NCBI RefSeq assembly: GCF_019924635.1
Contig: NZ_CP065037.1
Location: 1,116,001-1,180,000, forward strand
From: Leifsonia sp. ZF2019
Lineage (GTDB): Bacteria; Actinomycetota; Actinomycetes; Actinomycetales; Microbacteriaceae
Reading direction: 5' to 3'
Length of the DNA: 64,000 bases
In this document: positions 2 to 16,603 of the stretch, piece after piece
How positions within the stretch are numbered: the first letter of the stretch is position 1
Layout of the letters: every line of letters begins with the position of its first letter
Made by a program: the position numbers and the translations under genes
Notes under the pieces: generated by a model
What the model saw: only the letters and a program-made list of their open reading frames with translations
Told to the model about the DNA's origin: nothing
The model's database searches: none

Positions 2-715
2 ACCACGGTCATCCCTGGCACCAGTGCCGGGCTCATCCGCGACCTCGAAGGGCTGCCGACCAGCACCATCGTCGACGCCGACCTCGCCTTCCACGCCATT
101 CGGGATTACGTCCCCGGCGACTCCCGCCGCCATGTGCACTGGAAATCGACGGCCAAGACCGGCCGGCTGATGGTCCGCCAGTACGAGGAGGCCAGGCACT
201 CGCGGATCGCGGTCACGATCGGCATCACCGCGGAGGAGGAGTACGAGTCCGACGACGAGTTCGAGCTCGCCGTCAGCGTGGCCGCCTCGCTCAGCCTGCA
301 GGCGGTGCGCGACGGCCGCGACCTGGTCGTGACGACGAGCGCGGAACGGCCGGAGCTCGTGCGCGGCGAGGTCGTCACCATCCGCACCCTCCCGACGCGC
401 AACGCCGCGACCATGCTCGACGGCTTCTCCGAGATCGAGCTGGCGGAGCGGGCGAGTCGGCTGGAAGACGTGGCCAAGCTGACGGCCCAGTCGCATCCCG
501 ACCTCTCCGTCGTCTTCCTCGTGACGGGTGCGCACACCCCGCTCGGGCGGCTGCGCGCCGCCTCGGTGTCCTTCGGTCCGGACACCCGGTGCGTCGGCGT
601 CCGCTGCGACCTCGGCGCCGATCCGGCGTTCCGCCGTCTGGGCCCGCTCAGCATCCTCACCGTCGGCGCCCTCGTGGACCTCGGCAAGCTCATCGCCCGC
701 GGAGCTCTCCAGTGA
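2..715 (+). CDS. DUF58 domain-containing protein, C-terminal part (5' end outside window)
   Basis: The reading frame is open from the first base of the window and 237 residues are visible. The stretch around residues 30-60 (motif VPGDSRRHVHWKSTAKTG) is the hallmark of DUF58, a von Willebrand A-like fold that is usually encoded beside a MoxR-type AAA+ ATPase and a transglutaminase-like membrane protein. The start and any N-terminal membrane segments are upstream of the window. Its stop overlaps the GTG of the next gene by 4 bases (GTGA), so translation is coupled. A structural or chaperone role with a MoxR ATPase is family knowledge; the link to secretion is inferred from the neighbours. Confidence 0.88.
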   Translation, partial: TTVIPGTSAGLIRDLEGLPTSTIVDADLAFHAIRDYVPGDSRRHVHWKSTAKTGRLMVRQYEEARHSRIAVTIGITAEEEYESDDEFELAVSVAASLSLQAVRDGRDLVVTTSAERPELVRGEVVTIRTLPTRNAATMLDGFSEIELAERASRLEDVAKLTAQSHPDLSVVFLVTGAHTPLGRLRAASVSFGPDTRCVGVRCDLGADPAFRRLGPLSILTVGALVDLGKLIARGALQ

Positions 716-3255
716 GCGCGCCGGCGGGCCTCGACGGCGCGCGGGAGGCCGCACGCCGGGCGCGAGCGCGGCGGTCGTCGTCTCTGCGCCTCGACCTGCC
801 CCAGACCGTCCTGGCGTGCGCGTACGTGCTCGTCGCGCTCGGGCTCGCCTGCGCTCTGGCGTGGCCCATCTACCGCACACCGTTGCTGATAGGCGTTGCC
901 GCCTACGCGGGTGTCGTCGGCGTGGGCAGCGCGATCGCCGCCCGGATGCTCCGTTGGCCGTTGTGGCTCCACCTCGTCGCGGTCGCGGGTGCTTATCTGG
1001 TCGGAGTCGTCCCGCTCGCCGTGCCCGCGGCCCTCTCGTCTCCGACGGGTGTGCTCCGCGGGCTGCTGGACGGGGTCACCGGAATCGTCCTCGGCTGGAA
1101 GCAGCTCCTGACCCTCGACCTCCCCGTCGGGCAGTATCAGGCGGTGCTCGTCCCGGTCTACGCGCTCTTCCTGATCGGCGCCGCCCTCGCGGCCGGCCTC
1201 GCCCTGTCGCCCGGTCGCCGCGCGGCCGTCGCCGTCCCCGTCACGCTCGTGATGGGCGTGTTCGGGATCGCCTTCGGGCCGACTGATCCCGGTGCGCCGC
1301 TGCTGGTCGCGGGCATCCGGATCGACGCTCCGCGGGAGGTGCTGCTCGGCCTCCTCCTCGTCGCCGTCTCCCTCCTCTGGCTCTCGCTGCGGTCCCGCCT
1401 GCGTCGCCGTGCCGCCCTCGCCGCCGCCCGCGGGACCGTCGGCGTCGTGCGCCAGGGTTCGGCGTCGACCGCCGCGGCCGTCCGCCGCCGTCTGCTGGGG
1501 GCCGCGCTGATCGTGGTGGCCCTCGTGGCCGGTTTCACCGCCGGGCCGGCGCTGGCGGGTGTGAGCACGCGGGAGACGCTGCGCACCGCCACCGAGCCGC
1601 TCCTCGTCGTGCAGCAGCAGACGACCCCGCTCGGCCGCTACCGCGCCTCGTTCGAGAAGGACGCCTACGACCGGGTGATGTTCACGGTGTCGGGCGCCGA
1701 CGCGAGCATCGACCGGCTGCGGATGGCGACCCTCGACGACTGGGACGGCGAGCACTTCCTCGTCTCCGGGGATGCGCGCTTCTCGCGTCTGCCGGGCGGC
1801 TCGCCCGCCGCGTCCGCACGTGCGCTCACGGTCACCATCGGCGAGGGCTATTCGGGGATCTGGCTCCCGATGCCGTCGGACGCCCGCACGGCGCCGTCGT
1901 TCTCCGGCTCCCGCGCGGCCGCCCTCGCCGACGCCTTCTACCTCGACAAGCAGACCGGCGCGGGCATCGATGTCGCCCCCGAGCCCGACGGGGCGCGCGG
2001 TGTGAGGGCCGGCGACCGCTATCAGGTTCAGGGGACCGGGACGCCGAGAGTCGCGCTCGCCGACCCGGGGAGCAGCAGCCTGCTCGACCTCACGCAGCAT
2101 CCTCAGCTCGCCGCCTGGGTGAAGGCGCAGCAGCAGCCGCGCACTGCGGCCGGGTTCGAGGAGCTCGTGAAGCGGCTCCGCGACCGCGGGTACCTCAGCC
2201 ATTCCCTCGCCGAGGACGATCAGGCATCGGCGTGGATCTCCGCCTTGCGCCGTCAGTCCGCCTATCCGTTCGAATCGAGTTTCGCCGGCCACTCGACGGC
2301 GCGCGTCGAGGAGCTGTTCAGTCAGCTCCTCGAGCAGCAGGACCGGGTCGGGAGCGCCTCCAGCGCCGACATGCTCGTCGCGGGGGTCGGCGACGACGAG
2401 CAGTTCGCGGCCGCGGGGGCTCTGCTCGCGCGGGCGGTCGGGTACGAGTCGCGGGTCGTCGTGGGCGTGCGGATGGGTGCAGGGGAGACCGGCGGGATCC
2501 CCGACTGCTCGGGCGAGTGCACGGGGGCGAACCTCGCGGCGTGGATCGAGGTGCGCGCCCCGGGAGCCGCCGACTGGACGACGGTCGACGTCGAGCCCCA
2601 GTTCACCAAGGCACCGACCCTGATCTCGCTCGACCACGAGCTTCCCAAGAACCCCACGGTGCCCGAGCAGCCGCAGGTCGGGACGGTGCTCCCGCCCGCG
2701 GCGCAGCACGACGACCGCGACGCGACCCGCGCGGTCGTGACCGAGCAGCCCGAGTGGGTGGTCGTCCTCCTGCGGGTGCTCACGATCGTGGGGCTCGCCG
2801 TCGTGACGCTCCTGCTGCTGACGTTGCCGTTCCTCGTCGTGCTCGTCGCCAAGCGGACCCGTCGCCGTCGTCGCCGCCGCGCTCCGGTGCCGGAGGTCGC
2901 CGTCGTCGGAGCGTGGGCAGAGCTGATGGACGCCCGTACGGATATCGGGGAGGCCGCCTCCACGGGAACGCGGCGCGACGCGGCGGCGGCGATGGACTCC
3001 GCCACGGCGGTCGAGCTCGCGGCTCTCGTCGATATCGCCGTCTTCGCCGAGCACCCGCCCACCCGGGATGCGGCCGACCGCGCCTGGGAGCTGGTCGACA
3101 CCGAGCGCGCGCGTCTGCGGGCCGAGCACGGTCCCGTCCGATCGCTGCTCGCCGCGCTCAACCCGGCGTCGTTCGTCCGTGCACTCGGCCGCCCGCGGCC
3201 CGTGTCGTCCTGGCTCGCGTTCGCGACGCCCCGATCGCGGAAGGCGGGCGCATGA
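712..3255 (+). CDS. Membrane protein with degenerate transglutaminase-like domain (TgpA-like)
   Basis: 847 residues, starting at the GTG that overlaps the previous stop. The N-terminal third carries several hydrophobic segments, then a large extracytoplasmic region, one more transmembrane helix near residues 685-710 followed by a basic RRRRR stretch, and a cytosolic tail. The transglutaminase core is recognisable at about residues 555-630. Where the family has Cys-Glu-Gln the protein has Asp562-Glu-Gln, and where it has His-Ala-Trp it has Ala609-Ala610-Trp611. The catalytic Cys and His are therefore missing and enzymatic activity is unlikely. It is probably a structural partner of the DUF58 protein at the membrane. 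The function is inferred; the fold call is fairly secure. Confidence 0.85.
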   Translation: MSAPAGLDGAREAARRARARRSSSLRLDLPQTVLACAYVLVALGLACALAWPIYRTPLLIGVAAYAGVVGVGSAIAARMLRWPLWLHLVAVAGAYLVGVVPLAVPAALSSPTGVLRGLLDGVTGIVLGWKQLLTLDLPVGQYQAVLVPVYALFLIGAALAAGLALSPGRRAAVAVPVTLVMGVFGIAFGPTDPGAPLLVAGIRIDAPREVLLGLLLVAVSLLWLSLRSRLRRRAALAAARGTVGVVRQGSASTAAAVRRRLLGAALIVVALVAGFTAGPALAGVSTRETLRTATEPLLVVQQQTTPLGRYRASFEKDAYDRVMFTVSGADASIDRLRMATLDDWDGEHFLVSGDARFSRLPGGSPAASARALTVTIGEGYSGIWLPMPSDARTAPSFSGSRAAALADAFYLDKQTGAGIDVAPEPDGARGVRAGDRYQVQGTGTPRVALADPGSSSLLDLTQHPQLAAWVKAQQQPRTAAGFEELVKRLRDRGYLSHSLAEDDQASAWISALRRQSAYPFESSFAGHSTARVEELFSQLLEQQDRVGSASSADMLVAGVGDDEQFAAAGALLARAVGYESRVVVGVRMGAGETGGIPDCSGECTGANLAAWIEVRAPGAADWTTVDVEPQFTKAPTLISLDHELPKNPTVPEQPQVGTVLPPAAQHDDRDATRAVVTEQPEWVVVLLRVLTIVGLAVVTLLLLTLPFLVVLVAKRTRRRRRRRAPVPEVAVVGAWAELMDARTDIGEAASTGTRRDAAAAMDSATAVELAALVDIAVFAEHPPTRDAADRAWELVDTERARLRAEHGPVRSLLAALNPASFVRALGRPRPVSSWLAFATPRSRKAGA

Positions 3256-4475
3256 CCGACAAGACCGCCACCCTGCTCGTCCTCACCGCCGTGATCGCGC
3301 TGATCGCGGTCATCGTGGGGCTCGCCGTCTTCCTCTGGTATGCCGCGGCGCTCTCGCGCGTCTTCGCCCGCCGCGGGGTCGAGCCGTGGCGCGCGTGGGT
3401 TCCCGTGCTCAACGAGGCCGAGATCCTCCGCCTCGGCGGCGGCCCGGCCTGGGGAGTCGTGTTCTTCTTCATCCCGGTCGTCTGTCTGTACGCCGTCGTG
3501 CTGCGCGGGATGGCGGCGCACCGGATCAGCGCGACGTTCGGGCGCGGGGCAGGGGCGACCGTGCTGGCCGTGCTCCTCCCTCCGGTGTGGGCGACGGTGC
3601 TGGCATCGACGCGCGACCCGCGGCCGGCCGGCGCTCCGCAGTCGGGCGGAGCGGGGAGGCGCGAGGCGGCCGTGCGGCCCGACGCTCCCGCGGAGACCGC
3701 GGCCCCATCGCCGGTGTCGCCCGTCCCTGTCGCGCCGTCGGCTCCTGTGCCCGTCGCGGGATCAGAGCCTGTCCCGACGGCGATCGCGGAATCCGACACG
3801 CGTGCGCCATCCGGTCCGCCGCCGGCGCCCGAACCTGTGCCGACGTCCGAGCCGGTTTCTGCGTCCGAGCCGCCGCCGATCAGCAGCCCCTTCCTCGATG
3901 CGCCGATCGCTTCGCCCGTGGTCTCCGCGCCGGAGCCGGAGGCTTCCGACAGCATCCGGTCGCCGTTCCTCGAGCAGAGCCTCCCGGACGAGCCGCCTGA
4001 GCTGCTGCAGCCGGTCGAGCCGACTGAGCCGCCGCAGCCGGTCGATCCGGTCGAGTCGGTCGAGCAGCACGCGATCCTGGAGCCGGGCGAGGTCCTCGAA
4101 CAGGACGACGAGGCCGGCGAAACGATCGTCGTCGAGCGCCCGGTCGCGGTCGCCTGGTCCCTCGTCACCGATGATGGCGTGCGGTTCCCCCTGGAGGCGG
4201 ACGTCGTCGTGCTCGGGCGTCGTCCCGCGGGTGACGAGCCGGGCGTGCAGTACCTCGCCGTGCCCGATACGACACGCACGCTCTCCAAGCAGCACGCCTG
4301 CCTCACCCGGCAGGGGGACGGCTGGACGGTCGCCGACCTCGATTCCACCAACGGCGTCTTCCTCGAGCAGGACGGCCGGGAGCGACGCATCGCTTCCGGT
4401 GAGTCGACGGAGCTGAACGGCAGGCTCCTGCTCGGGTCCGTCGGCCTGCGGCTCGAACGCGAGGAGTCCCGATGA
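3252..4475 (+). CDS. Membrane protein with C-terminal FHA domain
   Basis: 407 residues; the ATG overlaps the previous stop (ATGA). Residues 1-110 hold hydrophobic segments of the small DUF5684-like type (motif WRAWVPVLNEAEILRLGG). A long Pro/Glu/Ser-rich linker covers about 120-285. The C-terminal FHA domain (about 300-405) has the expected GRR, SKQH and STNG signature residues for phospho-Thr binding. Just before it, Thr291 lies in GETIVVER, almost the same motif as the repeats of the protein two genes downstream, so it may bind its own phosphorylated linker, as GarA/OdhI do. That mechanism is an inference; the kinase is not in the window. Confidence 0.87.
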   Translation: MTDKTATLLVLTAVIALIAVIVGLAVFLWYAAALSRVFARRGVEPWRAWVPVLNEAEILRLGGGPAWGVVFFFIPVVCLYAVVLRGMAAHRISATFGRGAGATVLAVLLPPVWATVLASTRDPRPAGAPQSGGAGRREAAVRPDAPAETAAPSPVSPVPVAPSAPVPVAGSEPVPTAIAESDTRAPSGPPPAPEPVPTSEPVSASEPPPISSPFLDAPIASPVVSAPEPEASDSIRSPFLEQSLPDEPPELLQPVEPTEPPQPVDPVESVEQHAILEPGEVLEQDDEAGETIVVERPVAVAWSLVTDDGVRFPLEADVVVLGRRPAGDEPGVQYLAVPDTTRTLSKQHACLTRQGDGWTVADLDSTNGVFLEQDGRERRIASGESTELNGRLLLGSVGLRLEREESR

Positions 4476-5284
4476 CGGCGACGCAGTCCGTCCAGCTGAG
4501 TTCCGATGCCCGCAGCGACACCGGTCGAAAGCGCGCCGCGAACGAGGACTCGTTCCTCGCCGTGCCGCCGGTGTTCGCCGTCGCCGACGGTATGGGCGGT
4601 CATGAGGCCGGAGCCCAGGCCAGCGCGCACGTCGTGGCCGCCCTGCGCGAGACGCTCTGCACCGGAGGCCCCGTCGACCTGGTGCGCGTCTCGGCCGCGA
4701 TCGACGAGGCGTCGCGCCGGGTCTCGGCGCTTGCCGCGACCCGGGAACGGGGTGCCGGCAGCACGCTCACGGGAGTCATCCTCGTGGTCCACGACGGCCG
4801 GCCGCACTGGCTCATCGTCAACGTCGGCGACTCGCGCGTCTACCGCCTCGTCGGCGGCTACCTGGAGCAGCTCACGGTCGACCACTCCCTGGTGCAGGAG
4901 CGCGTCGATGCGGGGACGCTGCGCCCTGAGGACCGCGGCACCGCACCGGACAAGAACGTCATCACCCGAGCGCTCGGCTCGGTGGACGCGCGCGCCGACA
5001 GCTGGCTGATGCCGGTCACGACGGGCGAGCGTCTCCTGGTCTGCTCGGACGGGCTCCACGGCGAACTCAGCGACGAACAGCTCCGCGAGATCCTCGTGGC
5101 GGGCGGGCGCCCGGCGGCGACCACGGCTGCGCTCGTGGAGGCGGCGAACCGGGCGGGCGGTCGCGACAACGTCACGGCGGTGGTCGTCGACGTGCTCTCG
5201 GGCGGTGACCCCGGCGGCGACGGACCGGCCGACACCCGCGAATCCCACGCCTGGACGGACGACGGGGACACGGTGCCGGTATGA
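4472..5284 (+). CDS. PP2C-family Ser/Thr protein phosphatase (soluble, PstP-like catalytic domain)
   Basis: 270 residues, ATG overlapping the previous stop. All PP2C metal-binding motifs are visible: DTGRKRAANED near residue 15, ADGMGGHEAG near 38, NVGDSRVYRL near 115, LLVCSDGLHGELSD near 190 and GGRDNVTAVVV near 230. Unlike mycobacterial PstP there is no transmembrane helix or extracellular domain after the catalytic core, so it should be cytosolic. It sits between an FHA protein and a protein rich in acidic Thr motifs, so those proteins are the obvious candidate substrates. The counteracting kinase is not seen in the window. Confidence 0.93.
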   Translation: MTATQSVQLSSDARSDTGRKRAANEDSFLAVPPVFAVADGMGGHEAGAQASAHVVAALRETLCTGGPVDLVRVSAAIDEASRRVSALAATRERGAGSTLTGVILVVHDGRPHWLIVNVGDSRVYRLVGGYLEQLTVDHSLVQERVDAGTLRPEDRGTAPDKNVITRALGSVDARADSWLMPVTTGERLLVCSDGLHGELSDEQLREILVAGGRPAATTAALVEAANRAGGRDNVTAVVVDVLSGGDPGGDGPADTRESHAWTDDGDTVPV

Positions 5285-6570
5285 CGAGCGACCCGACGAG
5301 CGAAGACACGAGCGGACGCGGGCCGGAGCAGGATCCTCGTGAGGAGCTGGATGAGCGTGACGAGCTGGATGAGACGGTGATCGTCGGTCGTGCCGATGCA
5401 GAGCCGGTGGCCGCTGCGGAGGAGCTGGATGAGACGGTGATCGTCCGTCGTGCCGATGCAGAGCCGGTGGCCGCTGCGGAGGAGCTGGATGAGACGGTGA
5501 TCGTCCGTCGTGCCGGTGCGGAGCCGGAGGCCGCTGCGGAGGAGCTGGATGAGACGGTGATCGTCCGTCGTGCCGGTGCGGAGCCCGTGGCGGCCACGGA
5601 CGCGCTCGACGAGACGATCGTCGTGGACCGCCTGCCATCGGACGCGGTCGAACCGCCGCTGACCCCTCGACTCGCCGTGGCCGCGACTGTTTCCGTGGAG
5701 CCTCCCACCGATGTGGAGCCGTCTTCGCTCGTGGAGTCCCCTCTCACGGCGGGATCGCCCCCGGCGCCCGCGGAACCCGCCTTGGATCCGGCGCCTCCGC
5801 GCGAGCCGGTGGCGCCCGTATCCGGCGCGGAGCCGCCCGCCTCGAGCGACGAGTCCTCCAGCGGCGCCCTCGAGACCGACCTCGACGACACGGTCGTTCC
5901 CCCTCGCGCGGCCGCACCTCAGGAGCTTGAGACCGTCCCCATCCCGGGCGCCGATACCGATACCGACAGCGACGTCGATGACGACACCGTCGGCCGCGCC
6001 ACGCTCGACGCCACCCGCGTCGTCCACCGTCACGACGGTCCGCTCGACGCCACCCGCGTCGTCCGACGCGACGACGAGGCTCATGATGATCCGTTCGATG
6101 CCACCCGCGTGGTGCGACGCGATGAGGACGAGGACGAGTCCGACGACACCATCATCGCTCGGCGCCCCGTGGGGACCGTGTCCGGGGATATCGCCGGCTC
6201 GCCGGTACCGTCGGCCCCTGTGGCGTCCCCGACCGCGCGGGCACAGCTCGCGCCCACCCGGCGTTCCCTGCGCGCCAAGCGCACGCCGATCGTCCTGCCG
6301 TCGGGCACCGCCGCGTCGGAGCGCGCTGCTGCAGCGCTCGGGGCGGACGCCGTGGTGCGCTACGAGCCGCGGCCCATCCCGGAGCCGCCCGCACCGGGGC
6401 CAGACCTCGGCAGCGGCCCGGAGGCGACCAGAGCCGCGACACCGTCCATGCGGTCGGTGTCGCGCGCGACCCGTTCCGCGGGGTGGATCACCCTCGGAAG
6501 CATCGTGGGCGCCTGCGTCGTGTCGATCGTCGGGCTGATCGTCATCGTGACGACCGTCGTCGGCGGCTGA
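5281..6570 (+). CDS. Tail-anchored acidic protein with tandem Thr (DETVIV-type) repeats
   Basis: 429 residues, ATG overlapping the previous stop. Residues 27-115 consist of a 20-residue repeat centred on ELDETVIVRR, placing Thr at 32, 52, 72, 92 and 112. Related motifs follow (DDTVV, LETVPI, three DATRVV, DDTIIA). A Pro/Ala/Ser-rich spacer lies between the two groups and a single hydrophobic helix sits at the very C-terminus (about 402-428). There is no signal peptide, so most of the protein should face the cytosol. An acidic residue before Thr and Val/Ile at +3 suits kinase targeting and FHA recognition. I do not recognise a named family. The role as a multivalent FHA scaffold is inferred from the FHA and PP2C neighbours. 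Confidence 0.8.
   Translation: MTSDPTSEDTSGRGPEQDPREELDERDELDETVIVGRADAEPVAAAEELDETVIVRRADAEPVAAAEELDETVIVRRAGAEPEAAAEELDETVIVRRAGAEPVAATDALDETIVVDRLPSDAVEPPLTPRLAVAATVSVEPPTDVEPSSLVESPLTAGSPPAPAEPALDPAPPREPVAPVSGAEPPASSDESSSGALETDLDDTVVPPRAAAPQELETVPIPGADTDTDSDVDDDTVGRATLDATRVVHRHDGPLDATRVVRRDDEAHDDPFDATRVVRRDEDEDESDDTIIARRPVGTVSGDIAGSPVPSAPVASPTARAQLAPTRRSLRAKRTPIVLPSGTAASERAAAALGADAVVRYEPRPIPEPPAPGPDLGSGPEATRAATPSMRSVSRATRSAGWITLGSIVGACVVSIVGLIVIVTTVVGG
5362..5601 (+). repeat. Four near-identical 60-bp tandem coding repeats
   Basis: Four consecutive 60-bp units are almost identical at the DNA level, including third codon positions, and encode the DETVIV repeats. The following unit (DETIVV, about 5602-5625) has diverged. 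The low divergence implies recent expansion or ongoing homogenisation. Confidence 0.9.
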
Positions 6571-6624
6571 GCCGTCGGAGTCGCCCACGCCGCGCGAGCC
6601 GGTACGCGCGTCCTGCCCGGTTAC

Positions 6625-7938
6625 TCAGGCCGTCCCCTCCATCCGCGCCCGCCTGCGGCGCGCCGCGAGGATGCCGACCACAGCGATCGCCGCCAGAATG
6701 GTGAGCCCGATCACGGACACGACCACGGCGGCGGCGCTCTGTCTCGCCTGGCTGTCGTCGTTCGGCTGGACCGTCAGCGCAGGCGATTCGCCGGCCGCGG
6801 GCGCGTGGGTCGACGCGGTGAAGGGGTTCGTCGGCCCGGCCGTCTCCGCTCCGGGGACGAGGACGATCGCCTCGTACGGCTGCACGACACCCCAGCCCGC
6901 GTCGTCGTCACGCGAGCCGGGATGCGCGCGGATGGCACTGGCCATCAGCCGGTAGGCCCACTCGGCGGGGGTCTCGTCGGGATGGGCGGAGGCGACGAGG
7001 GCGGCGGCGGCGGAGACGTAGGCCGTCGCGAAACTGGTCGCGGGGGCATCGGACGCATAGACGCAGTCGCCGCCGGTGCTCGCGGCGGTGAGCACGTCCT
7101 GGCCCGGGGCGCTGAGCGCCACGTGTGCGCCGTGGATGCTGTCGTCCGTCACCGCCCCACCCGTTCCGATCGCGGCGACGCCGAGGACGCCGGGGTAGCC
7201 GGCGGGGTACCGCACGCCGTCCTGCTGGTCCTTCTCAACGGCGAGCGAGGAGTCGCGGTTGCCGGAGGAGGCGACGATGAGGCTGCCGTGGGCGCTCGCG
7301 TAGGCGACCGCCTCCCGCAGCGCAGGGTCGTCGACGGCGGTCGAGAGCGAGACGTTGATGACCTGGGCATGGGCGTCGGCGGCGTAGCGGATGCCCGCGG
7401 CGAGCCGGGCGATGCTGGGGCCGCTGCCCGCAGCGACGGCCTGATCGTCGGTCCCCGCGAAGACCCGCACCGAGAGGATCCGAGCGTCCGGGGCGAGTCC
7501 CTCGACTCCGGAGCCGTCGACGGTCTGCGCGGCGATCTCACCGGCGATCGCCGTCCCGTGGCCGTAGCCGTCTGCGTACCCGGCCGAACCGGCTCCGTCG
7601 CCGACCAGATCGGTCCCGCCGGCCAACACGGAGGCGAGGTGCGGGTTGGCTGCGTCGACCCCCGAGTCGACGACGGCGACCACGATTCCCGCGCCGCGGG
7701 ACTGCTCCCAGGCCGTGGAGGCCTGCAGCTGTGCGAGCGCGGGCGGACGCTGCGGGATGAGCGTGGCCGCGCCGGTGCAGCCTGTGGTGGCCTCGGCGAG
7801 CCGGGCCGTCGACGCGACGGCTCGAGGGGGTCCGGACGCGCCGATCGTCGTGGCCGATGCCGGCGTCGCGACCAGTCCGAGCGCGGCGACGACGGCGGCG
7901 CCGGCGAGCAGCACCCGGGCGGCGGACCGGCCGTTCAT
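6625..7938 (-). CDS. mycP: Mycosin, membrane-anchored subtilisin-like protease of the type VII secretion system
   Basis: 437 residues with an N-terminal signal sequence (about 1-30, ending near ASA), an S8 peptidase domain, and a C-terminal transmembrane helix followed by RRRRAR. The catalytic triad can be read as Asp in AVVDSGVD, His in GYGHGTAIAG and Ser in ATSFATAYVS, with the oxyanion Asn in SSGNRD. The Ser motif has Ala where most subtilases have Gly (GTS). Its start overlaps the eccB stop by 4 bases. Mycosins stabilise and process ESX systems. It converges with the PP2C/repeat operon; no clear terminator is visible in the 54-bp gap. Confidence 0.93.
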   Translation of the reverse strand: MNGRSAARVLLAGAAVVAALGLVATPASATTIGASGPPRAVASTARLAEATTGCTGAATLIPQRPPALAQLQASTAWEQSRGAGIVVAVVDSGVDAANPHLASVLAGGTDLVGDGAGSAGYADGYGHGTAIAGEIAAQTVDGSGVEGLAPDARILSVRVFAGTDDQAVAAGSGPSIARLAAGIRYAADAHAQVINVSLSTAVDDPALREAVAYASAHGSLIVASSGNRDSSLAVEKDQQDGVRYPAGYPGVLGVAAIGTGGAVTDDSIHGAHVALSAPGQDVLTAASTGGDCVYASDAPATSFATAYVSAAAALVASAHPDETPAEWAYRLMASAIRAHPGSRDDDAGWGVVQPYEAIVLVPGAETAGPTNPFTASTHAPAAGESPALTVQPNDDSQARQSAAAVVVSVIGLTILAAIAVVGILAARRRRARMEGTA

Positions 7939-9272
7939 CCGGCGGATGCGCTCGACGTCGCGCCCGCCGCGGACGTGCTGAGCTCCGGTCCGCTGTGCAG
8001 GAGTGCGATCCAGGTCTGTTCGACGGTGCCCACTTCGTCCGGCGTGTAGCCCAGGCGCTTCACCGTCTCGTCGTCGGCGCCGGGGAGCGCGAACGCGGTT
8101 CCCGTGGCATCGACGAGGGTCAGCATCCCGGCACTGCCGGCTCCACGACCCGCGGCGTCGATCAGGGCGCCGTGTCCGGCCTGCACGGTGACGCCCGATG
8201 TCGCCTTCGCCGAGGCCGGCGCCGTCGCGAGCACGGTGGTGCCGCTCGCGCTGAGCAGGGCGCAGGCGCGATCGCTCGCGGTGAGGGAGGTGAAGCCCTC
8301 CGCCGGCCAGTCCGCCCCGCCCGCCGGTGCCTTCGCCGTGCGGAGACCGGCGACGGAGGCCGCCGACACCTCACGCACGGTCGACATCGTGCGCCCGGAG
8401 CCGAGCTGGTAGAGCTGCCAGGCCAGGGGGCTGAGGGTCGCGAGAGACCCGTCGCCCTGGACGACGAAACGCTGCTCGGCGGCACTGCCGGAGGTGTGGA
8501 TGACCTCGCCCACCAGCAGGGGGCCGTCGCTCAGCGCCCCGCCCGGGACGGGCGAGCCGGCGTCGGTGATGACGAGCGGCTCCAGAGCGGCGCCGGGCGA
8601 GAAGAGGTTGAGCCAGTCGGAGGACACCCGCACAGGCGCCAAGGCGTCGATCCCGGCGGCGCGGAGCACGGCATCGGCGTTCTGCCCATCCACCCCGTAG
8701 CGCAGGCCGCCCGCGACGACCCAGCGCTCGCCGCCGTTCTCGACGACCACGGCGCGGTCGGTCGCCGTCGCGGAGGGGCGGGTGCGGATCGATGTCGCGA
8801 CACCACCGTCGTCGGTCACACAGGCGGTCCAGCCGGTGTTCACGAGTGCGTCGGCGCTCGGGAGAGCGTCGGGTGCGCCGACGATCCCGACCGGGGAGCC
8901 GACCGCGATGCCCGAGAGCGCGTGCGAGTCGGTCGTGATGACGGCGAAGCTGGAGGACGGGATGAGGAGACGCGCGCTCGCGGTGTTGATCACCGGGTGG
9001 AGGACGCCTTTCACCGAGACGTAGCGGGCGCCGGTGTCCTTCGCGATGAGCATGCGGCCGTTCTGCCAGCCCTGGGGCAGCCCGGGCTGGATGAGCCCGT
9101 AGAACGCCCCGGCGAGCAGCACGGCGGCGGTGAGCACGATCGCGATCACGACGGCTCGCAGGGGCTTCGCGGGCTCGAGCTCCTTGCCGCCCGGCGCGCC
9201 GCTGACGAACGCGGTGAGGAGCCGTCGGCGCGAGAAGTTCTGGGCCTCGATGAGGTCGGTCTTGCTCGCCAC
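7935..9272 (-). CDS. eccB: Type VII secretion core protein EccB
   Basis: 445 residues with the EccB layout: a short cytosolic N-terminus (QNFSRRRLLTAFVSG), one transmembrane helix at about 42-64, and a large extracytoplasmic domain with the conserved start RMLIAKDTGARYVSV. EccB forms the periplasmic-side ring of the ESX membrane complex. It lies 3 bases downstream of eccD and overlaps mycP, so the three genes form one operon. Confidence 0.93.
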   Translation of the reverse strand: MASKTDLIEAQNFSRRRLLTAFVSGAPGGKELEPAKPLRAVVIAIVLTAAVLLAGAFYGLIQPGLPQGWQNGRMLIAKDTGARYVSVKGVLHPVINTASARLLIPSSSFAVITTDSHALSGIAVGSPVGIVGAPDALPSADALVNTGWTACVTDDGGVATSIRTRPSATATDRAVVVENGGERWVVAGGLRYGVDGQNADAVLRAAGIDALAPVRVSSDWLNLFSPGAALEPLVITDAGSPVPGGALSDGPLLVGEVIHTSGSAAEQRFVVQGDGSLATLSPLAWQLYQLGSGRTMSTVREVSAASVAGLRTAKAPAGGADWPAEGFTSLTASDRACALLSASGTTVLATAPASAKATSGVTVQAGHGALIDAAGRGAGSAGMLTLVDATGTAFALPGADDETVKRLGYTPDEVGTVEQTWIALLHSGPELSTSAAGATSSASAG

Positions 9273-9275
9273 GTG

Positions 9276-10616
9276 TCAGGCCAGCCCGGCGGCGATCACG
9301 CCGATCGGCAGGAGCAGGGCCAGCACCACGACCTCCGCGGTGTCCGCGAGGCGGCCGAGACGGACGCGCACGCGGGGGTCGAGGAGCGTGACGACGATCG
9401 TGATCACCGTCACGGCGCCGAGCACGACGAGCAGCGTGGGGATCAGTCCCGGTTGGGCGACAGCGACGGTCAGCCCGGTCGCGGCGACGCCGGCGGTGCC
9501 GAGGGCCATCAGAGTGAGCACGTTGCTGCGCGAATAGCTCTGGCGCGCTGGGAACATGAGTCCGACGAAGGCGAGCGCGCACAGCACGGCTCCGAGCGGG
9601 GTGGATCCGGCGACGACCGGCGTCGCGGCGAGCACGGCGAGGCCGAGGGCGAGGCGCAGGGCGACGAGGGCGCGCTGTCCGGCGGCCGCCCGGCGGCGCA
9701 CATCCTCCGCGTCGATCGGCGCGGGCGCGGCGAACACCTCGCTGTCGCTCTGCGGGCTGATGACCCGCAGGCGGGTCGAGCTGAGGGCGAGCCACGGGAG
9801 GGCGTTCGCGAGCGTCGCGACGATCGCGACCGTGAGCGAGTAGGCGGCTGTCTGCGCGCCGGGGAGCAGACCCGTGATGACGGCCGGGATGCCGATCGCG
9901 GCCCCGGCGGCGACGGGGATGAGCTGCAGCTCCGGCCGGTAGGGGGTCAGAGCCAGGGCCGCCCCGCCGACCACGACCGCGCCGAGGCCCGCGGCCGCGA
10001 GCGGCCACCCCCAGAGGTCCCACGCGCCGGGGACGGCCAGGTAGCCGGCGACGGCGCCGAAGGCCGCGGACGCGAGGCCCAGGCCGCATCCCGCCTCCGG
10101 CTGGCCGACACGCGAGAGCACGGCCGAGGTGGTGACCAGGAGGACCGCTCCGCAGATCGCGACGATGAGACCGATCGCGAGCGCGTGCCCGGCGGCGACG
10201 AGCAGCACCGCGCACACGCCGAGCATCGTCAAGCTCACGGCGAGGGCGGTGCGGGTGTTGTCGGCAGGAGTCCAGGGACGGTGCTGCTCTGTCGTCGCGT
10301 CGAGCACGGCCTCGACGATGTCGTCGTACACGAGCGGCTCGGCGAGCAGCGCGCCCCGGGCGAGCGTCAGCAGCTCGCCCTCCTGGAGGCCCTGGTCGAG
10401 GGCGCCGCGACTCGGGTCGACGGTGCTGCCGTCGGCGCGCTGCAGCGTGTAGCCGACATGGGTCATGGTCGGGTCGAGCACGCCCAGGCTGCGGGCGAAG
10501 CCCGGCATGAGCTCGATGAGCGGGAGGTGCGCCGGCACGCCGACGTCGAGGCGGCGTCCTTCGCTCTGGACCGAGATGCGCAGGAGCGCCCGTACTGTGC
10601 TGACGGATTGACTCAC
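9276..10616 (-). CDS. eccD: Type VII secretion integral membrane protein EccD
   Basis: 446 residues from the GTG at 10616: a ubiquitin-like (YukD-type) domain at about 5-90 followed by about eleven transmembrane helices, as in EccD. I chose this start because a purine-rich AGGGGGAGG lies about 10 bases upstream and the ubiquitin-like domain begins immediately. A frame extending to 10859 adds only low-complexity Arg/Thr-rich sequence. EccD forms the membrane vestibule of the ESX pore. It is the first gene of eccD-eccB-mycP. Confidence 0.9.
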   Translation of the reverse strand: MSQSVSTVRALLRISVQSEGRRLDVGVPAHLPLIELMPGFARSLGVLDPTMTHVGYTLQRADGSTVDPSRGALDQGLQEGELLTLARGALLAEPLVYDDIVEAVLDATTEQHRPWTPADNTRTALAVSLTMLGVCAVLLVAAGHALAIGLIVAICGAVLLVTTSAVLSRVGQPEAGCGLGLASAAFGAVAGYLAVPGAWDLWGWPLAAAGLGAVVVGGAALALTPYRPELQLIPVAAGAAIGIPAVITGLLPGAQTAAYSLTVAIVATLANALPWLALSSTRLRVISPQSDSEVFAAPAPIDAEDVRRRAAAGQRALVALRLALGLAVLAATPVVAGSTPLGAVLCALAFVGLMFPARQSYSRSNVLTLMALGTAGVAATGLTVAVAQPGLIPTLLVVLGAVTVITIVVTLLDPRVRVRLGRLADTAEVVVLALLLPIGVIAAGLA

Positions 10617-10918
10617 CCGGTCCGTGCCTCCCCCTGTGCGACTGGACGACCCTTGTGCTCGTGGACGCCGCTGCTGTGCTCGTGGACGCCGCTGCGTGGT
10701 CGGGCGGCGTGTCGTGCCACGCCCACCCATCCTACCCAAGCCGACGCGCAGTGGCCCGCGCATGGGTGCTACCACTGATATCCGCGCGGAGAGGTTGCGT
10801 CCACCCCCGAACGCCAATACCGTGGCGGATGTCGACATGACCTCAATTGCGCTCTGCATGTCGGTGAGTTGGGGGGTCTTGCCGTGCGAACAAGCGATGG
10901 AATCAGGAATGGAGTGTC
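10617..10918. promoter_or_regulatory. Divergent control region between eccD and the WXG100 genes
   Basis: 302 bases with no supported gene. It contains the eccD ribosome-binding site, a perfect 21-bp tandem repeat (10654-10695), and a lower-GC stretch from about 10790 just ahead of the first WXG100 gene. I could not define a convincing -35/-10 pair. Confidence 0.5.
10654..10695. repeat. Perfect 21-bp direct repeat (two copies)
   Basis: The 21-mer at 10654-10674 is repeated exactly at 10675-10695, directly upstream of eccD. It may be a duplicated regulator site or slippage in a GC-rich leader. Confidence 0.9.
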
Positions 10919-11233
10919 ATGGCTGATGTGATCTCAGCAGAAGAGGGTGCGCTCAAGCGCGGAGCCCAGGCCGTCGGTACCGCGAAGTCGGGCATCGACC
11001 AGCAGGTCAAGTTCGTCCGCGGTGAGATCGAGCAGCTCCGCGGATTCTGGACCGGCGAGGCGGCGGGTGCGTTCACCCAGCTCATGTCCCGGTGGGACGA
11101 GGAGACGCGCAAGCTGAACGACGTGCTCATCACTCTCGAGGACGCCCTGAGCGGCACCGAGAAGGACCAGGTCCGCACGGAGGAGTCGCACCAGCAGACG
11201 ATCTCCGGTCTCTCGTCGATGATGGGCTCCTGA
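10919..11233 (+). CDS. WXG100 family protein (Esx-like), first of pair
   Basis: 104 residues, all helical in character, with the W-x-G turn at Trp44-Thr-Gly46 (FWTGEAAGAF) between two amphipathic helices. WXG100 proteins fold as antiparallel helix-turn-helix dimers and are the classic type VII secretion substrates. The following gene is a second WXG100 protein 35 bases away, so a heterodimer is likely. No YxxxD/E secretion motif is visible at its C-terminus; the partner has one. Confidence 0.93.
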   Translation: MADVISAEEGALKRGAQAVGTAKSGIDQQVKFVRGEIEQLRGFWTGEAAGAFTQLMSRWDEETRKLNDVLITLEDALSGTEKDQVRTEESHQQTISGLSSMMGS

Positions 11234-11268
11234 GCCGAGAGGCCCAGGCAGCAGGAAAGGTTTTCAAC

Positions 11269-11559
11269 ATGCAGTCGATGTCGGTCGACCCCGGACAGCT
11301 CACCGCTCTCTCCGGCCAGATCCGTACCGGTGCCAATGGCATCAAGTCCCAGCTCGAGCAGCTCGAGTCCGAGGTCGGGAAGCTCCGAGCCTCCTGGGAT
11401 GGTCAGGCGCAGACGGCGTACGACGACGCCCAGCGCAAGTGGACGCAGTCCCTCACCGCGCTGAACACGCTGCTCGAGCAGATCTCGAACAAGACGGATG
11501 AGATCTCGCAGCACTACGTGTCGTCGGACAAGTCGTCCGCCGGGCGCTTCTCGCTCTGA
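11269..11559 (+). CDS. WXG100 family protein (Esx-like), second of pair, with YxxxD export motif
   Basis: 96 residues from the ATG at 11269, preceded by AGGAAAGG. The W-x-G turn is Trp43-Asp-Gly45 and the C-terminal tail contains Tyr83-Val-Ser-Ser-Asp87, matching the YxxxD/E general secretion motif of actinobacterial type VII substrates. It probably pairs with the preceding WXG100 protein and provides the export signal for the dimer. Confidence 0.93.
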   Translation: MQSMSVDPGQLTALSGQIRTGANGIKSQLEQLESEVGKLRASWDGQAQTAYDDAQRKWTQSLTALNTLLEQISNKTDEISQHYVSSDKSSAGRFSL

Positions 11560-11645
11560 ACGACGCCGCTCGCGGATCGTCCCCGGCCGTGGCCGGGGCC
11601 GGTCCGCGAGCGCATGCGCACCCGGTGCCGTAGAAGGGAGAACCC

Positions 11646-12110
11646 ATGGCAGCATCCGGCAAGAAGGTCGGAGTCGACGGCGAGACCGTCCTCGACCACG
11701 CCAAGCGGATCGACGCGGCGACGGTGGCGGACGCCGCGAAACTGGTCCAGGAGTACCAGGTCGGCGGATCGAGTGGTGGTACCGCCGAGCCCGCCCTGTC
11801 GGGCTTCATCGCCCAGCTCGGCGACACGCTCGACACCATCGCGGCGAACGCCACGAAGCTCAACAAGACCGTCGCGTCGAACACGGACGCGCTGCGCGAC
11901 GCGGTCAAGACGCTGAACGAGGCGGACGACCAGGCGAAGTCCGACGCGCAGACGCTGCAGGCGCTGATCGACGACCAGCCCCAGCCGAAGGGCAAGGTGC
12001 CGCCCGCGCCGGCTCCCGCTGCTCCTGCCGGCCCGGTGGCGCCGACGGGCTCGGGTGCGTCGTCGCCCGGCGACGTGTTCCAGAAGTCGGCGGGCAGCGA
12101 CCGGCACTGA
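11646..12110 (+). CDS. Small helical protein of unknown function linked to type VII secretion
   Basis: 154 residues with a good ribosome-binding site (GAAGGGAG) before the ATG. Residues 1-110 are mostly helical, with a coiled-coil-like stretch around 60-110. A Pro/Ala-rich tail (about 118-140) follows and the end reads DVFQKSAGSDRH. There is no signal peptide, W-x-G turn or YxxxD/E motif. Its place directly behind the WXG100 pair suggests a co-secreted protein, substrate chaperone or adaptor, but I do not recognise the family. Confidence 0.75.
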   Translation: MAASGKKVGVDGETVLDHAKRIDAATVADAAKLVQEYQVGGSSGGTAEPALSGFIAQLGDTLDTIAANATKLNKTVASNTDALRDAVKTLNEADDQAKSDAQTLQALIDDQPQPKGKVPPAPAPAAPAGPVAPTGSGASSPGDVFQKSAGSDRH

Positions 12111-14188: not shown

Positions 14189-14211
14189 CAGCCAGACCCT
14201 CAGCGCCGAGC

Positions 14212-14688
14212 TCAGCCCCGCAATCCCCGAAGGACGAGCGCGGTGGCGAGTGCCGCGTGCGCCGCCTCCTCGCCCTTGTCCTCCTTGGAGCCGGGGAGGC
14301 CGGCGCGGTCGATGCCCTGGGCTTCGTCGTCGAGCGTCAGCACGCCGAACCCGACCGGCTTGCCGGTGTCGAGCGCGACGCGGGTGAGGCCGTCCGTCGC
14401 TGCCGCCGAGACGTACTCGAAATGCGGGGTGCCGCCGCGGATGATGACGCCGAGCGCCACGACCGCGTCGGCACCGGACTCGAGCGCCGCCTTGCTGACG
14501 ACGGGGAGCTCGAAGCTTCCCGGCACACGGACGAGCGACCAGGTCGCCCCCGCGGCGTCGAGGGTGCGCTGGGCGCCCGCGATCAGGCCGTCCGTGATCT
14601 GCTCGTGCCAGGTGCCGGCGACGATCACGACGTTCAGGCCGCTTCCGTCGATCCGTCCGGTGGTCTCCGGGGCTCCCGCTCCGCTCAT
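14212..14688 (-). CDS. ribH: 6,7-dimethyl-8-ribityllumazine synthase
   Basis: 158 residues, the usual length. Lumazine synthase motifs are present: [33 protein letters not shown] (with the active-site His region) and [10 protein letters not shown]. The enzyme condenses 5-amino-6-ribitylaminouracil with dihydroxybutanone phosphate. Its ATG overlaps the ribBA stop (ATGA). It is the last gene of the riboswitch-controlled riboflavin operon. Confidence 0.97.
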
Positions 14689-15980
14689 CGTGTGGTCCTC
14701 TCCGCTGCGATCGCAGCCGTGTCGTCCATCGGGGTCCGGTCGATGCTCCCGATCGCGTGACCCATGCGGTCCCGCTTGGTCTCCAGATAGCCCTCGTTGA
14801 AGGCGCCGACGCCGACGACGAGCGGCACACGCTCGGCGACGTCGATGCCGTGCTCCTCGAGCTGGCGCACCTTCTCCGGGTTGTTGGTCAGCAGGCGCAC
14901 GGACTCGATGCCGAGGTCCTGCAGGATGGCCGTGGCCGCGCCGTAGTCGCGGGCGTCGATGGGCAGGCCGAGGGCGAGGTTGGCGTCGAGTGTGTCGAGG
15001 CCCTCCTCCTGCAGCTTGTAGGCACGCAGCTTGTTGATCAGGCCGATGCCGCGTCCCTCGTGGCCACGCAGGTAGACGACGACCCCGCCGTCGCGCTGGA
15101 TGGTGTCGAGCGCGGCGTCGAGCTGCGGCCCGCACTCGCATTTCAGCGAGCCGAAGGCCTCGCCGGTCAGGCACTCCGAGTGCACGCGCACCAGGGTGCC
15201 CGTGGCGGCGGGGTCGCCGGCGACGATGGCGACATGGTCGGCGCCGGTCATCCGGTCGCGGTACGCGCGCATCGTGAACGGGCCGTGGGTCGTCGGCACG
15301 GTGGTCTCGACCTCGAAGATGACGCGGGAGGTCTCGGGCACGGGGGTGACCGATTCCAGCTGCTGGTCGCAGTGGAACTCCTGCAGGTACGCGATCAGCG
15401 CCTCGATCGTGATGACGAGCACACCCTCGCGCTCGCCGAGCTCGATGAGGCCGGGCAGGCGCATCATCTCGCCGTCGTCCGCCACGATCTCGGCGATCGC
15501 GCCGACCGGCGTCATCCCCGCGAGCTTCAACAGGTCGACCGCCGCCTCGGTGTGGCCGTCGCGCTCGCGTACGCCGCCCTCCACCGCGCGGAGGGGGAGG
15601 ATGTGGCCGGGCCGGTGCAGGCTGGTGGGCTGCGAGTCCCGATCGGCGAGCACGCGCAGGGTGTGCGCGCGGTCGGCGGCGCTGATGCCGGTGGAGAGGC
15701 GGTCCGCGGCGTCGACGCTCACCGTGTAGTTCGTCCCGCGGGCGTCCTCGTTCGTGGCGACCATCACCGGCAGTTCCAGGCGGTCGGCGATCTCGTTCGT
15801 CATCGGGGCGCAGATGAAACCGGACGAGTTCTTCACCGTCCACGCGATCCACTCCTGGCTCGCGAGCTCCGCGGCGAGGACGACGTCGCCCTCGTTCTCG
15901 CGGCTCTCGTTGTCCACGACGATGACCGGCCGGCCGGCGCGCAGCTCGGCGAGAGCCTCCGGGATCGATGCCAGACTCAT
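14685..15980 (-). CDS. ribBA: Bifunctional 3,4-dihydroxy-2-butanone-4-phosphate synthase / GTP cyclohydrolase II
   Basis: 431 residues. The N-terminal half is the DHBP synthase (ENEGDVV acidic metal site, [11 protein letters not shown]). The C-terminal half is GTP cyclohydrolase II, with zinc ligands in [15 protein letters not shown] and the [10 protein letters not shown] active-site loop. Both halves keep their catalytic motifs, so one protein supplies both precursors of riboflavin. It overlaps ribE and ribH by 4 bases each. Confidence 0.97.
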
Positions 15981-16603
15981 GACGCACTCCGTTCGTCGCG
16001 CTCGCTCAGGGCGAGCATGCGTTCCACGTGACGGGCGAGGATGTCCGTCTCGATGTTGACGCGATCGCCCGGCACGCGGTCGCCGAGCGTGGTCGCCGAC
16101 AGCGTCTCCGGGATCAGGGAAACCTCGAACCAGCCGTCCTCGCGTCCGCCGCCGACGGCGCTCACGGTCAGTGAGACGCCGTCAACGGCGATGGAGCCCT
16201 TGCGCACCACCAGCGGCGCGTGCTCCGGGTCGAGGCTGAGGCGCACGACGCGCCAGGCGCTCCCGTCGGTGACGGAGAGCACGGTCGCGGTGCCGTCGAT
16301 GTGGCCCTGCACGATGTGTCCGCCGAGGCGATCGCCGACCTGCGCCGCGCGCTCGAGGTTGACCCGGCGGCCGGGCGCGACGTCGTCGAGAGTGCTCATC
16401 GCGAGTGTCTCGGCCATGACGTCGGCGGTGAATGTCTGCGCGTCCTGACCGATCACGGTGAGGCACACCCCGCTCACCGAGATGGAGTCTCCGTGCGCCG
16501 CGTCGCTCACGGCGAGCGACCCGCGCACCGTGATCCGCGCCGCGTCGGCGACGCGCTCGACGGCGGTGATCTCGCCGAGCTCTTCGATGATTCCGGTGAA
16601 CAT
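15977..16603 (-). CDS. ribE: Riboflavin synthase, alpha subunit
   Basis: 208 residues made of two homologous lumazine-binding repeats. It opens with the invariant [10 protein letters not shown] and has the second-repeat signature [10 protein letters not shown]. It dismutates two lumazines to riboflavin. It sits 1 base after the ribD stop and overlaps ribBA, so it is translated as part of the rib operon. Confidence 0.97.

Follow-up and report, generated by a model that had tools for sequence, protein, structure and literature searches.

A PFNA-type, putative phospho-threonine module adjoining a type VII secretion locus in Leifsonia sp. ZF2019, a candidate for control of secretion

Genes predicted to act in reversible threonine phosphorylation lie against a type VII secretion system (T7SS) of the T7SSa (ESX) class in Leifsonia sp. 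ZF2019, which raises the question of whether they control secretion. The locus occupies the beginning of the analysed window, a stretch of 64,000 nucleotides (G000:C1:1116001-1180000, where G000 is this 4.34-Mb genome), and extends into the sequence directly upstream (L008, C1:1096001-1116000). A first-pass annotation of the window had described a DUF58 protein, a dead transglutaminase-like protein, an FHA protein, a PP2C phosphatase and a threonine-repeat protein next to mycP-eccB-eccD and a WXG100 pair, and had concluded that all parts of a phospho-switch except the kinase were present. We put the chances at about even that a reversible phospho-threonine module of the kind found in the PFNA operon of Bifidobacterium is wired here to the T7SSa. 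Control of secretion is a likely, though putative, role of the module.

The missing kinase proved to be an effect of the window edge. A Ser/Thr kinase gene is located on the same, plus strand at L008:11153-12289, its ends lying 8847 and 7711 bases upstream of the window. It overlaps by 4 bp the gene of an Ig-domain giant of 2011 residues (L008:12286-18321), which is followed by moxR (L008:18371-19336) and by the gene of the DUF58 protein (PF01882), running from L008:19342, 658 bases before the window, to window position 715. The plus strand then encodes a membrane pseudo-transglutaminase with a TgpA-like fold (712..3255; Transglut_core) that has lost the catalytic Cys and His, a DUF5684 membrane protein with a C-terminal FHA domain (3252..4475), a PP2C/PPM Ser/Thr phosphatase (4472..5284; PF13672 and PF00481, with NF033484 below its cut-off) and a threonine-repeat protein of 429 residues with no Pfam family (5281..6570); from the DUF58 gene to the repeat gene, every junction is a 4-bp overlap. 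Upstream of the kinase gene lies eccC (L008:7048-11016), whose product matched TIGR03924 with 897 bits and TIGR03925 with 827 bits, both above cut-off, and which is overlapped by 4 bp by the preceding gene for a zinc-ribbon/RDD-FHA protein (L008:5753-7051). Counted from a second mycosin gene, mycP2 (L008:1676-2923), through those of a Gly-rich protein of 443 residues (L008:2920-4251) and an EccD-like protein (L008:4320-5756), also on the plus strand, to the repeat gene, the run comprises 13 same-strand genes, and neighbours overlap by 4 bp at 8 of the 12 junctions; the remaining gaps measure 68, 136, 49 and 5 bp, that of 136 bp separating eccC from the kinase gene.

Beyond the repeat gene, the minus strand carries mycP (6625..7938; PF00082, subtilase), eccB (7935..9272; PF05108, 9.5e-63) and eccD (9276..10616; PF19053 and PF08817, a YukD plus transmembrane domain; start uncertain, maybe further upstream). 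These three genes converge with the 13-gene run and diverge from a pair of plus-strand WXG100 genes (PF06013), one esxA-like (10919..11233) and one esxB-like (11269..11559). Pfam matches thus bore out the secretion genes named in the first-pass annotation and, with the 4-bp overlaps, the reality of its five module genes, the repeat gene being without a family. The kinase, MoxR ATPase and EccC for which it had proposed a search were all found just upstream on the same strand, and so was one additional gene each for a mycosin, an EccD-like protein and an FHA protein. Two mycosins and two EccD-like proteins (L008:4320-5756 and window 9276-10616) within one T7SSa locus would make a hetero-oligomeric EccD possible.

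The residues expected of a working phospho-switch are well kept. The kinase Arg, Asp, Lys, Asn and DFG were conserved in 100 of 100 relatives, the PP2C ligands in 100 or 101 of 101, and the FHA signature in 103 of 116, with 11 of the 13 misses coming from incomplete loci. The run is thus predicted to encode an intact kinase, an intact PP2C phosphatase and two membrane FHA proteins with complete phospho-threonine-binding signatures; neither an FHA hit nor an FHA signature was found in EccC. The kinase ends in a hydrophobic tail without an extracytoplasmic part. The giant has bacterial Ig domains, its only Pfam matches at E ≤ 0.001 being Big_9 and Cadherin_4, and no FN3 domain was detected by Pfam at that threshold. 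The transglutaminase-like protein had rightly been called dead: among 121 relatives the Cys position held D, E or Q in all, the His was kept in 6 and the Asp in 112, 80 of these sequences coming from a named-genome scan seeded partly on the same motif region as this check and the other 41 being independent of it. A model of its fold (pLDDT 71.5, pTM 0.43) returned TgpA as structural match, and a sequence search of the PDB with a piece of the protein gave nothing useful. The label 'transglutaminase' is therefore questioned for the family found here.

A candidate phosphorylation site is shared by two products of the run. In the repeat protein, Thr 32, 52, 72, 92, 112, 204, 245, 258, 275 and 290 stand in D-x-T-x-hydrophobic motifs, the first five at a spacing of 20 residues, and a weaker additional one is found at Thr 383, ahead of a hydrophobic C-terminal segment. 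In the FHA protein, Thr291 stands in GETIVVERP, 31 residues before the FHA Gly-Arg. The common form, [DE]-x-T-[V/I]-[V/I]-V-x-R, stands as a single copy about 31 residues ahead of the FHA domain and as a tandem array within the repeat protein. A putative phospho-threonine motif is hence present about ten times in a low-complexity tailed protein and once before an FHA domain, all in the same run as eccC.

Across loci, the strict form [DE]-x-T-x-[VILAM]-x-x-R occurred 219 times in 61 open reading frames (ORFs) following the PP2C gene versus 5.6 times in shuffled sequences, a tally favoured by the fact that the ORF with the highest motif count was picked at each locus. At least one copy was present in 57 of the 61 and at least two in 50, 49 exceeded nearly all shuffles, and 59 had a hydrophobic run within the last 45 residues. 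A loose form, with [DE] within three residues and a hydrophobic residue at +2, was weakly enriched (363 observed versus 147 shuffled, with 23 of the 61 proteins surpassing almost every shuffle), so that the strict form carries the claim. In the region before the FHA domain, which was picked regardless of motif, the threonine motif lay 20-45 residues ahead of the Gly-Arg in 92 of 98 proteins, in 85 of them at 29-32 residues; control windows further upstream contained it in 17 of 98, 12 of 85, 7 of 83 and 6 of 81. Arg at +5 and an acidic residue at -2 recur. The strict motif stood at about the shuffled level in kinase, Ig giant, MoxR, DUF58 and transglutaminase-like proteins, and above it in FHA and PP2C proteins. 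At least one strict motif was present in 22 of 24 T7SSa-linked and 33 of 35 unlinked loci, so that the presence of the repeat protein follows that of the module and is not tied to the T7SS. DWDSTVLSS or EWDGTVLSS precedes the FHA domain in small genomes that have a PFNA-like cluster, and the ORF after the PP2C gene repeats DDSTVLSSRR or DDATRLASRR in family f10, whose member G176 coincides with a Demequina on the tree described below. A subset of PP2C proteins carries [DE]xTT[IV]PVR, another possible phospho-motif that, among the matches listed, makes up 24 of 40 strict motifs in 101 PP2C rows.

The gene order is not due to chance. The nearest homologues belong to Leifsonia and other Microbacteriaceae. 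A scan of named genomes for relatives of the transglutaminase-like protein returned at least 336 matches, of which the best 80 were kept. Among these best 80, the order kinase, Ig giant, MoxR, DUF58, transglutaminase-like was present in 71 of 71 loci with enough upstream sequence, FHA and PP2C matches followed within 6.5 kb in 55 of 65, and, of 64 loci whose downstream sequence exceeded 9 kb, 23 had a convergent mycP-eccB after the module. The last arrangement, whose recurrence in relatives the first-pass annotation had left to be checked, was found in Leifsonia, Schumannella, Microbacterium, Mycetocola, Rhodoglobus, Leucobacter, one Demequina, one Cellulomonas and unplaced records, so that T7SSa linkage spans three named families. 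With kinase and eccC close by and the order recurring in relatives, the conditions under which that annotation would have accepted chance adjacency do not hold. Downstream of the first module, Microbacterium galbinum and M. commune (L073, L087) encode an Ig giant and MoxR once more, which suggests a tandem duplication, and in one T7SSa-linked locus the WXG100 pair is duplicated (G037:C2 86459-90637).

Linkage was also measured in 60 genomes of the family, sampled regardless of linkage, which contained 78 transglutaminase-superfamily places in 52 genomes and 50 T7SS-type ATPase places. Eighteen of the 50 ATPases (5 of 12 EccC, 8 of 23 TsdC and 5 of 15 other EssC-like) had a transglutaminase-superfamily match within 30 kb, versus about 1.6 expected under random placement. 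This result strengthens the linkage and has no bearing on mechanism. Nine of the 18 were checked gene by gene (five EccC-linked and four TsdC-linked, G026, G011, G007 and G045), and the other nine, in G002, G004, G009, G017, G043, G049, G050 and G056, were counted by the transglutaminase match. Some of the latter lie 14-20 kb from that match and may represent another layout. A close-type module, defined by E < 1e-95 for the transglutaminase-like protein, was present in 12 of the 60 genomes and a T7SSa-like EccC (43-72% identity, best match) in 11; five genomes had both, and in 5 of 5 the two were adjacent.

Adjacency is not confined to T7SSa. In other families the same genes precede an ATPase of 1484-1552 residues with an N-terminal FHA domain, which fits EssC better than EccC and which we take for the T7SSd (TsdC) type as set out in passages of PMC11217815. 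Matches to this type were present in 87 of 149 genomes of the taxonomic order, with 37 places above 1600 bits; the module had led to 7 of these and the ATPase to 18, and the remaining 12 were omitted. A full module lay upstream of the ATPase in 9 of the 18 (G163, G083, G100, G067, G196, G204, G133, G153, G082; order rotated in G196 and G082), a partial one in 3 (G149, G098 and, at a contig end, G185) and none in 6, in a sample that leans towards linked loci since the ATPase profile was built from module-linked ATPases. The same arrangement was found in G144, G205, G064, G177 and G070, and in the family's own four TsdC-linked genomes. A paralogous cluster in the genome of Leifsonia sp. ZF2019 itself (G000:C1:2051112-2066555; L229/L230) has the order zinc-ribbon-FHA, PP2C, kinase, Ig giant, MoxR, DUF58, transglutaminase-like, FHA. 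In G037, G058 and G032 its counterpart is followed by an EccC/EssC-like ATPase of 921-1031 residues (L232:1331-4264, L236, L237/L238), for which TIGR03928 (EssC) was the best model in G037 (4e-79); no such ATPase was found beside the cluster in Leifsonia sp. ZF2019, where the next gene is presumably alanine-dehydrogenase-like, or in G055. The module thus adjoins three kinds of predicted T7SS-type ATPase. The short one, which has a hydrophobic N-terminal stretch, is possibly a small T7SS-type ATPase not described before. For the small genomes, equating the PFNA-like cluster with the T7SSd operon itself found no support: the T7SSd-like ATPase of G141 is some 33 kb distant from the cluster and is accompanied by another kinase-like gene.

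A tree of MoxR-DUF58-transglutaminase-like sequences (103 loci, 100 different rows, FastTree only, several long branches) placed 14 of 17 TsdC-linked rows in one deep group, with 5 changes in all, and all 30 T7SSa-linked rows, with 10 changes, in one group of 65, where they are joined by 35 unlinked ones. A single joining to T7SSa followed by many losses would fit this tree, and several joinings are also possible.

Several observations weigh against a control of the T7SSa by the module. Within the window, mycP-eccB-eccD run towards the module and so do not form one operon with it there. In the family sample, 32 of 50 ATPases had no transglutaminase match within 30 kb, and 7 of the 12 genomes with a close-type module had no linked T7SS; five of these seven (G014, G018, G053, G029, G051) have a TsdC/EssC-like ATPase elsewhere, the contigs of G053 and G051 ending within about 7 kb after the transglutaminase-like gene so that linkage is only partly visible there, and the other two have only partial ATPase matches, a weak one in G046 and, in G032, the short ATPase beside its second cluster. 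Conversely, six T7SSa genomes (G003, G019, G020, G031, G048, G056) lack a close-type module, and G055, of the same genus, lacks both module and T7SSa. Three of the six (G003, G019, G048) have an RDD-FHA match near EccC, with the FHA signature intact in G003 and G019 and a strict signature not found in G048. The RDD-FHA protein itself contained no threonine motif and must also, given the intact signature in G003 and G019, have another ligand. Co-occurrence of module and T7SSa is weak evidence for coupling, with p 0.033 for the 12 module genomes and 0.12 when the four TsdC-linked genomes are added (16 module genomes). Strict dependence of the module on a T7SS was rejected, since module-only and T7SSa-only genomes both exist. 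The seven family genomes with a close-type module but no linked T7SS, the 56 of 103 tree loci unlinked within the sequence compared, the own-genome paralogous cluster with no adjoining ATPase, the ten changes of the T7SSa-linked rows, which one joining and many losses would explain, and the bifidobacterial clusters, whose descriptions in passages of PMC8430577 and PMC6803598 include no secretion genes, together give real though less than even plausibility to an independent envelope-signalling unit of kinase, Ig giant and MoxR-DUF58-pseudo-transglutaminase whose switch drives a process of its own, for instance display at the surface or building of the cell wall, and whose T7SS neighbours are kept by ancestry and do not depend on it. 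Three kinds of ATPase and the excess of linked ATPases over expectation are hard to fit to a single old neighbourhood, however. The FHA protein gene directly before eccC and the FHA domain of the TsdC-type ATPase itself also speak against this reading.

That the threonine repeats are an ordinary low-complexity expansion without phosphosites, and the protein a spacer or tether, we consider improbable. Outside the motifs the protein shows little conservation (7 rows were retrieved, including the window's own), linkers rich in acidic residues, Ala and Pro are common in such proteins, the choice of ORF inflates the strict count and the looser motif is far less enriched; yet the same motif keeps a constant spacing to the FHA domain, within a region picked regardless of it, recurs with its Arg and acidic positions, and is at background in most other module proteins. 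Chance adjacency of unrelated genes, to which the convergent junction in the window and the absence of the locus from the sister species G055 would point, is contradicted by the conservation counts: a convergent mycP-eccB follows the module in 24 named loci (best 80 of at least 336) of at least three families, all five family genomes with both systems have them adjacent, and linkage exceeds random expectation. With the conserved order, that excess led us to reject chance, which we hold for very improbable indeed.

If the module is wired to the T7SSa, the kinase, probably coupled to the extracytoplasmic Ig giant, would phosphorylate the motif threonines. The FHA domains would then recognise these phospho-threonines on the repeat protein in trans, and FHA proteins might also bind one another, as in TIFA-like head-to-tail binding; since the motif stands only about 31 residues ahead of the domain, binding in cis could meet steric obstacles, which favours the trans mode. 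Such binding would cluster the membrane proteins and act as a switch at the membrane, reversed by the PP2C phosphatase, while MoxR, DUF58 and the dead transglutaminase-like protein might work as a unit that assembles or remodels the envelope part at the expense of ATP. The RDD-FHA protein encoded with the T7SS beside EccC is the likely reader passing the state on to the secretion machine. Seven kinase and eight FHA matches in the genome make cross-talk possible.

More tentatively, the portable module may serve Actinomycetes generally as a regulator of type VII secretion, acting on at least three kinds of ATPase through phosphorylation-dependent clustering of membrane FHA proteins on a repeat protein, with the number of motifs setting valency, and the PFNA operon may be descended from it. 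If so, the bifidobacterial operon, studied for cytokine binding, would derive from a secretion regulator. The locus brings together two lines of work, on that operon and on kinase- and FHA-bearing T7SS variants, that were not found joined in the literature searched. The repeat protein, the motif, the kinase, the phosphatase and the two readers are concrete candidates for post-translational control of T7SSa, and phosphate control of type VII secretion becomes testable in non-pathogenic bacteria. A 2023 paper reportedly described phosphorylation of the T7SS substrate CFP10.

Three further features border the locus. A plus-strand gene for a 154-residue protein with no Pfam family (11646..12110), present in few relatives, follows the WXG100 pair, and window positions 14200-16603 hold what we take to be riboflavin biosynthesis genes, ordinary neighbours. 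At the left end of L008, a long minus-strand frame gives the impression of a helical, WXG-like N-terminus and a hydrolase-like C-terminus and might encode a T7SS substrate. EccE (PF11203) had no match in the genome in a scan whose control matched in 0 of 14 genomes.

The first-pass annotation knew of no named system with this arrangement, a view that was not supported for two of its parts. Passages of PMC8430577 and PMC6803598 give the PFNA operon of Bifidobacterium as pkb2, fn3, aaa-atp, duf58, tgm, prpC, a hypothetical gene and fha, and the kinase, extracellular repeat giant, MoxR, DUF58 protein, transglutaminase-like protein, PP2C and FHA protein found here follow nearly the same order, its pkb2-fn3-aaa-duf58-tgm part having a counterpart gene by gene in that sequence; G096 and G079 likewise have these kinds of gene in nearly this order. 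The kinase-to-PP2C half is therefore not new in kind and corresponds to that operon. Differences are that the FHA gene here precedes the PP2C gene, that the giant has Ig domains and no FN3 hit, that a threonine-repeat protein takes the place of another hypothetical protein in G096 and G079 (putative bifidobacterial relatives), that T7SSa genes share the run and that the host is not Bifidobacterium; 'type vii' and 'wxg' have no occurrence in PMC8430577. In section 9 of PMC11217815 (Garrett et al. 2024), on T7SSd and T7SSe, a Ser/Thr kinase and an Ig-domain giant (TsdI/TseI), a PPM phosphatase (TseF) and an FHA protein (TseJ) already stand beside a T7SS, homology to TsdD/TsdI being by description only; TsdH and TseK, with a single transmembrane segment and a short unstructured cytoplasmic part, are counterparts of the repeat protein by analogy of the text only. 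MoxR, DUF58 and the pseudo-transglutaminase are absent from that account ('moxr' has no occurrence in the paper), and the ATPase here is a true T7SSa EccC without FHA domain, with EccB, EccD and MycP, the EssC-like ATPase with N-terminal FHA domain being found not in this locus but in relatives such as G205 and G068. With EccB, EccC, EccD, MycP and a WXG100 pair, the secretion genes are those of a T7SSa/ESX; what sets the locus apart is the doubling of both mycosin and EccD-like protein, the RDD-FHA protein encoded ahead of EccC and the attached kinase/PP2C/FHA module.

Kinase, phosphatase and FHA reader likewise control secretion in the threonine phosphorylation pathway of the type VI secretion system (T6SS; PpkA, PppA, Fha, TssL), for which passages of PMC3953482 give DLPpTVVEI as verified Fha ligand, resembling the D-x-T-V-V-V core here; the T6SS is an unrelated secretion machine, and here many motif copies sit on a dedicated protein. 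OdhI and GarA, as covered in passages of PMC2784874 and PMC12321487, likewise have a phospho-threonine motif (ETTS) N-terminal to the FHA domain as target of a Pkn-type kinase, whereas the FHA protein here is a membrane protein with its motif only about 31 residues ahead of the FHA Gly-Arg. No literature linking PFNA or MoxR-DUF58 to T7SS was found by searches whose scope left many subscription papers outside; in the available parts of two hits, PMC8191103 has MoxR and DUF58 in an expression table with T7SS words in its references only, and 'type VII' in PMC12067865 denotes ABC transporters. As far as these searches show, the linkage of the module to T7SS-type ATPases is new, as is the threonine motif common to the repeat protein and the region before the FHA domain.

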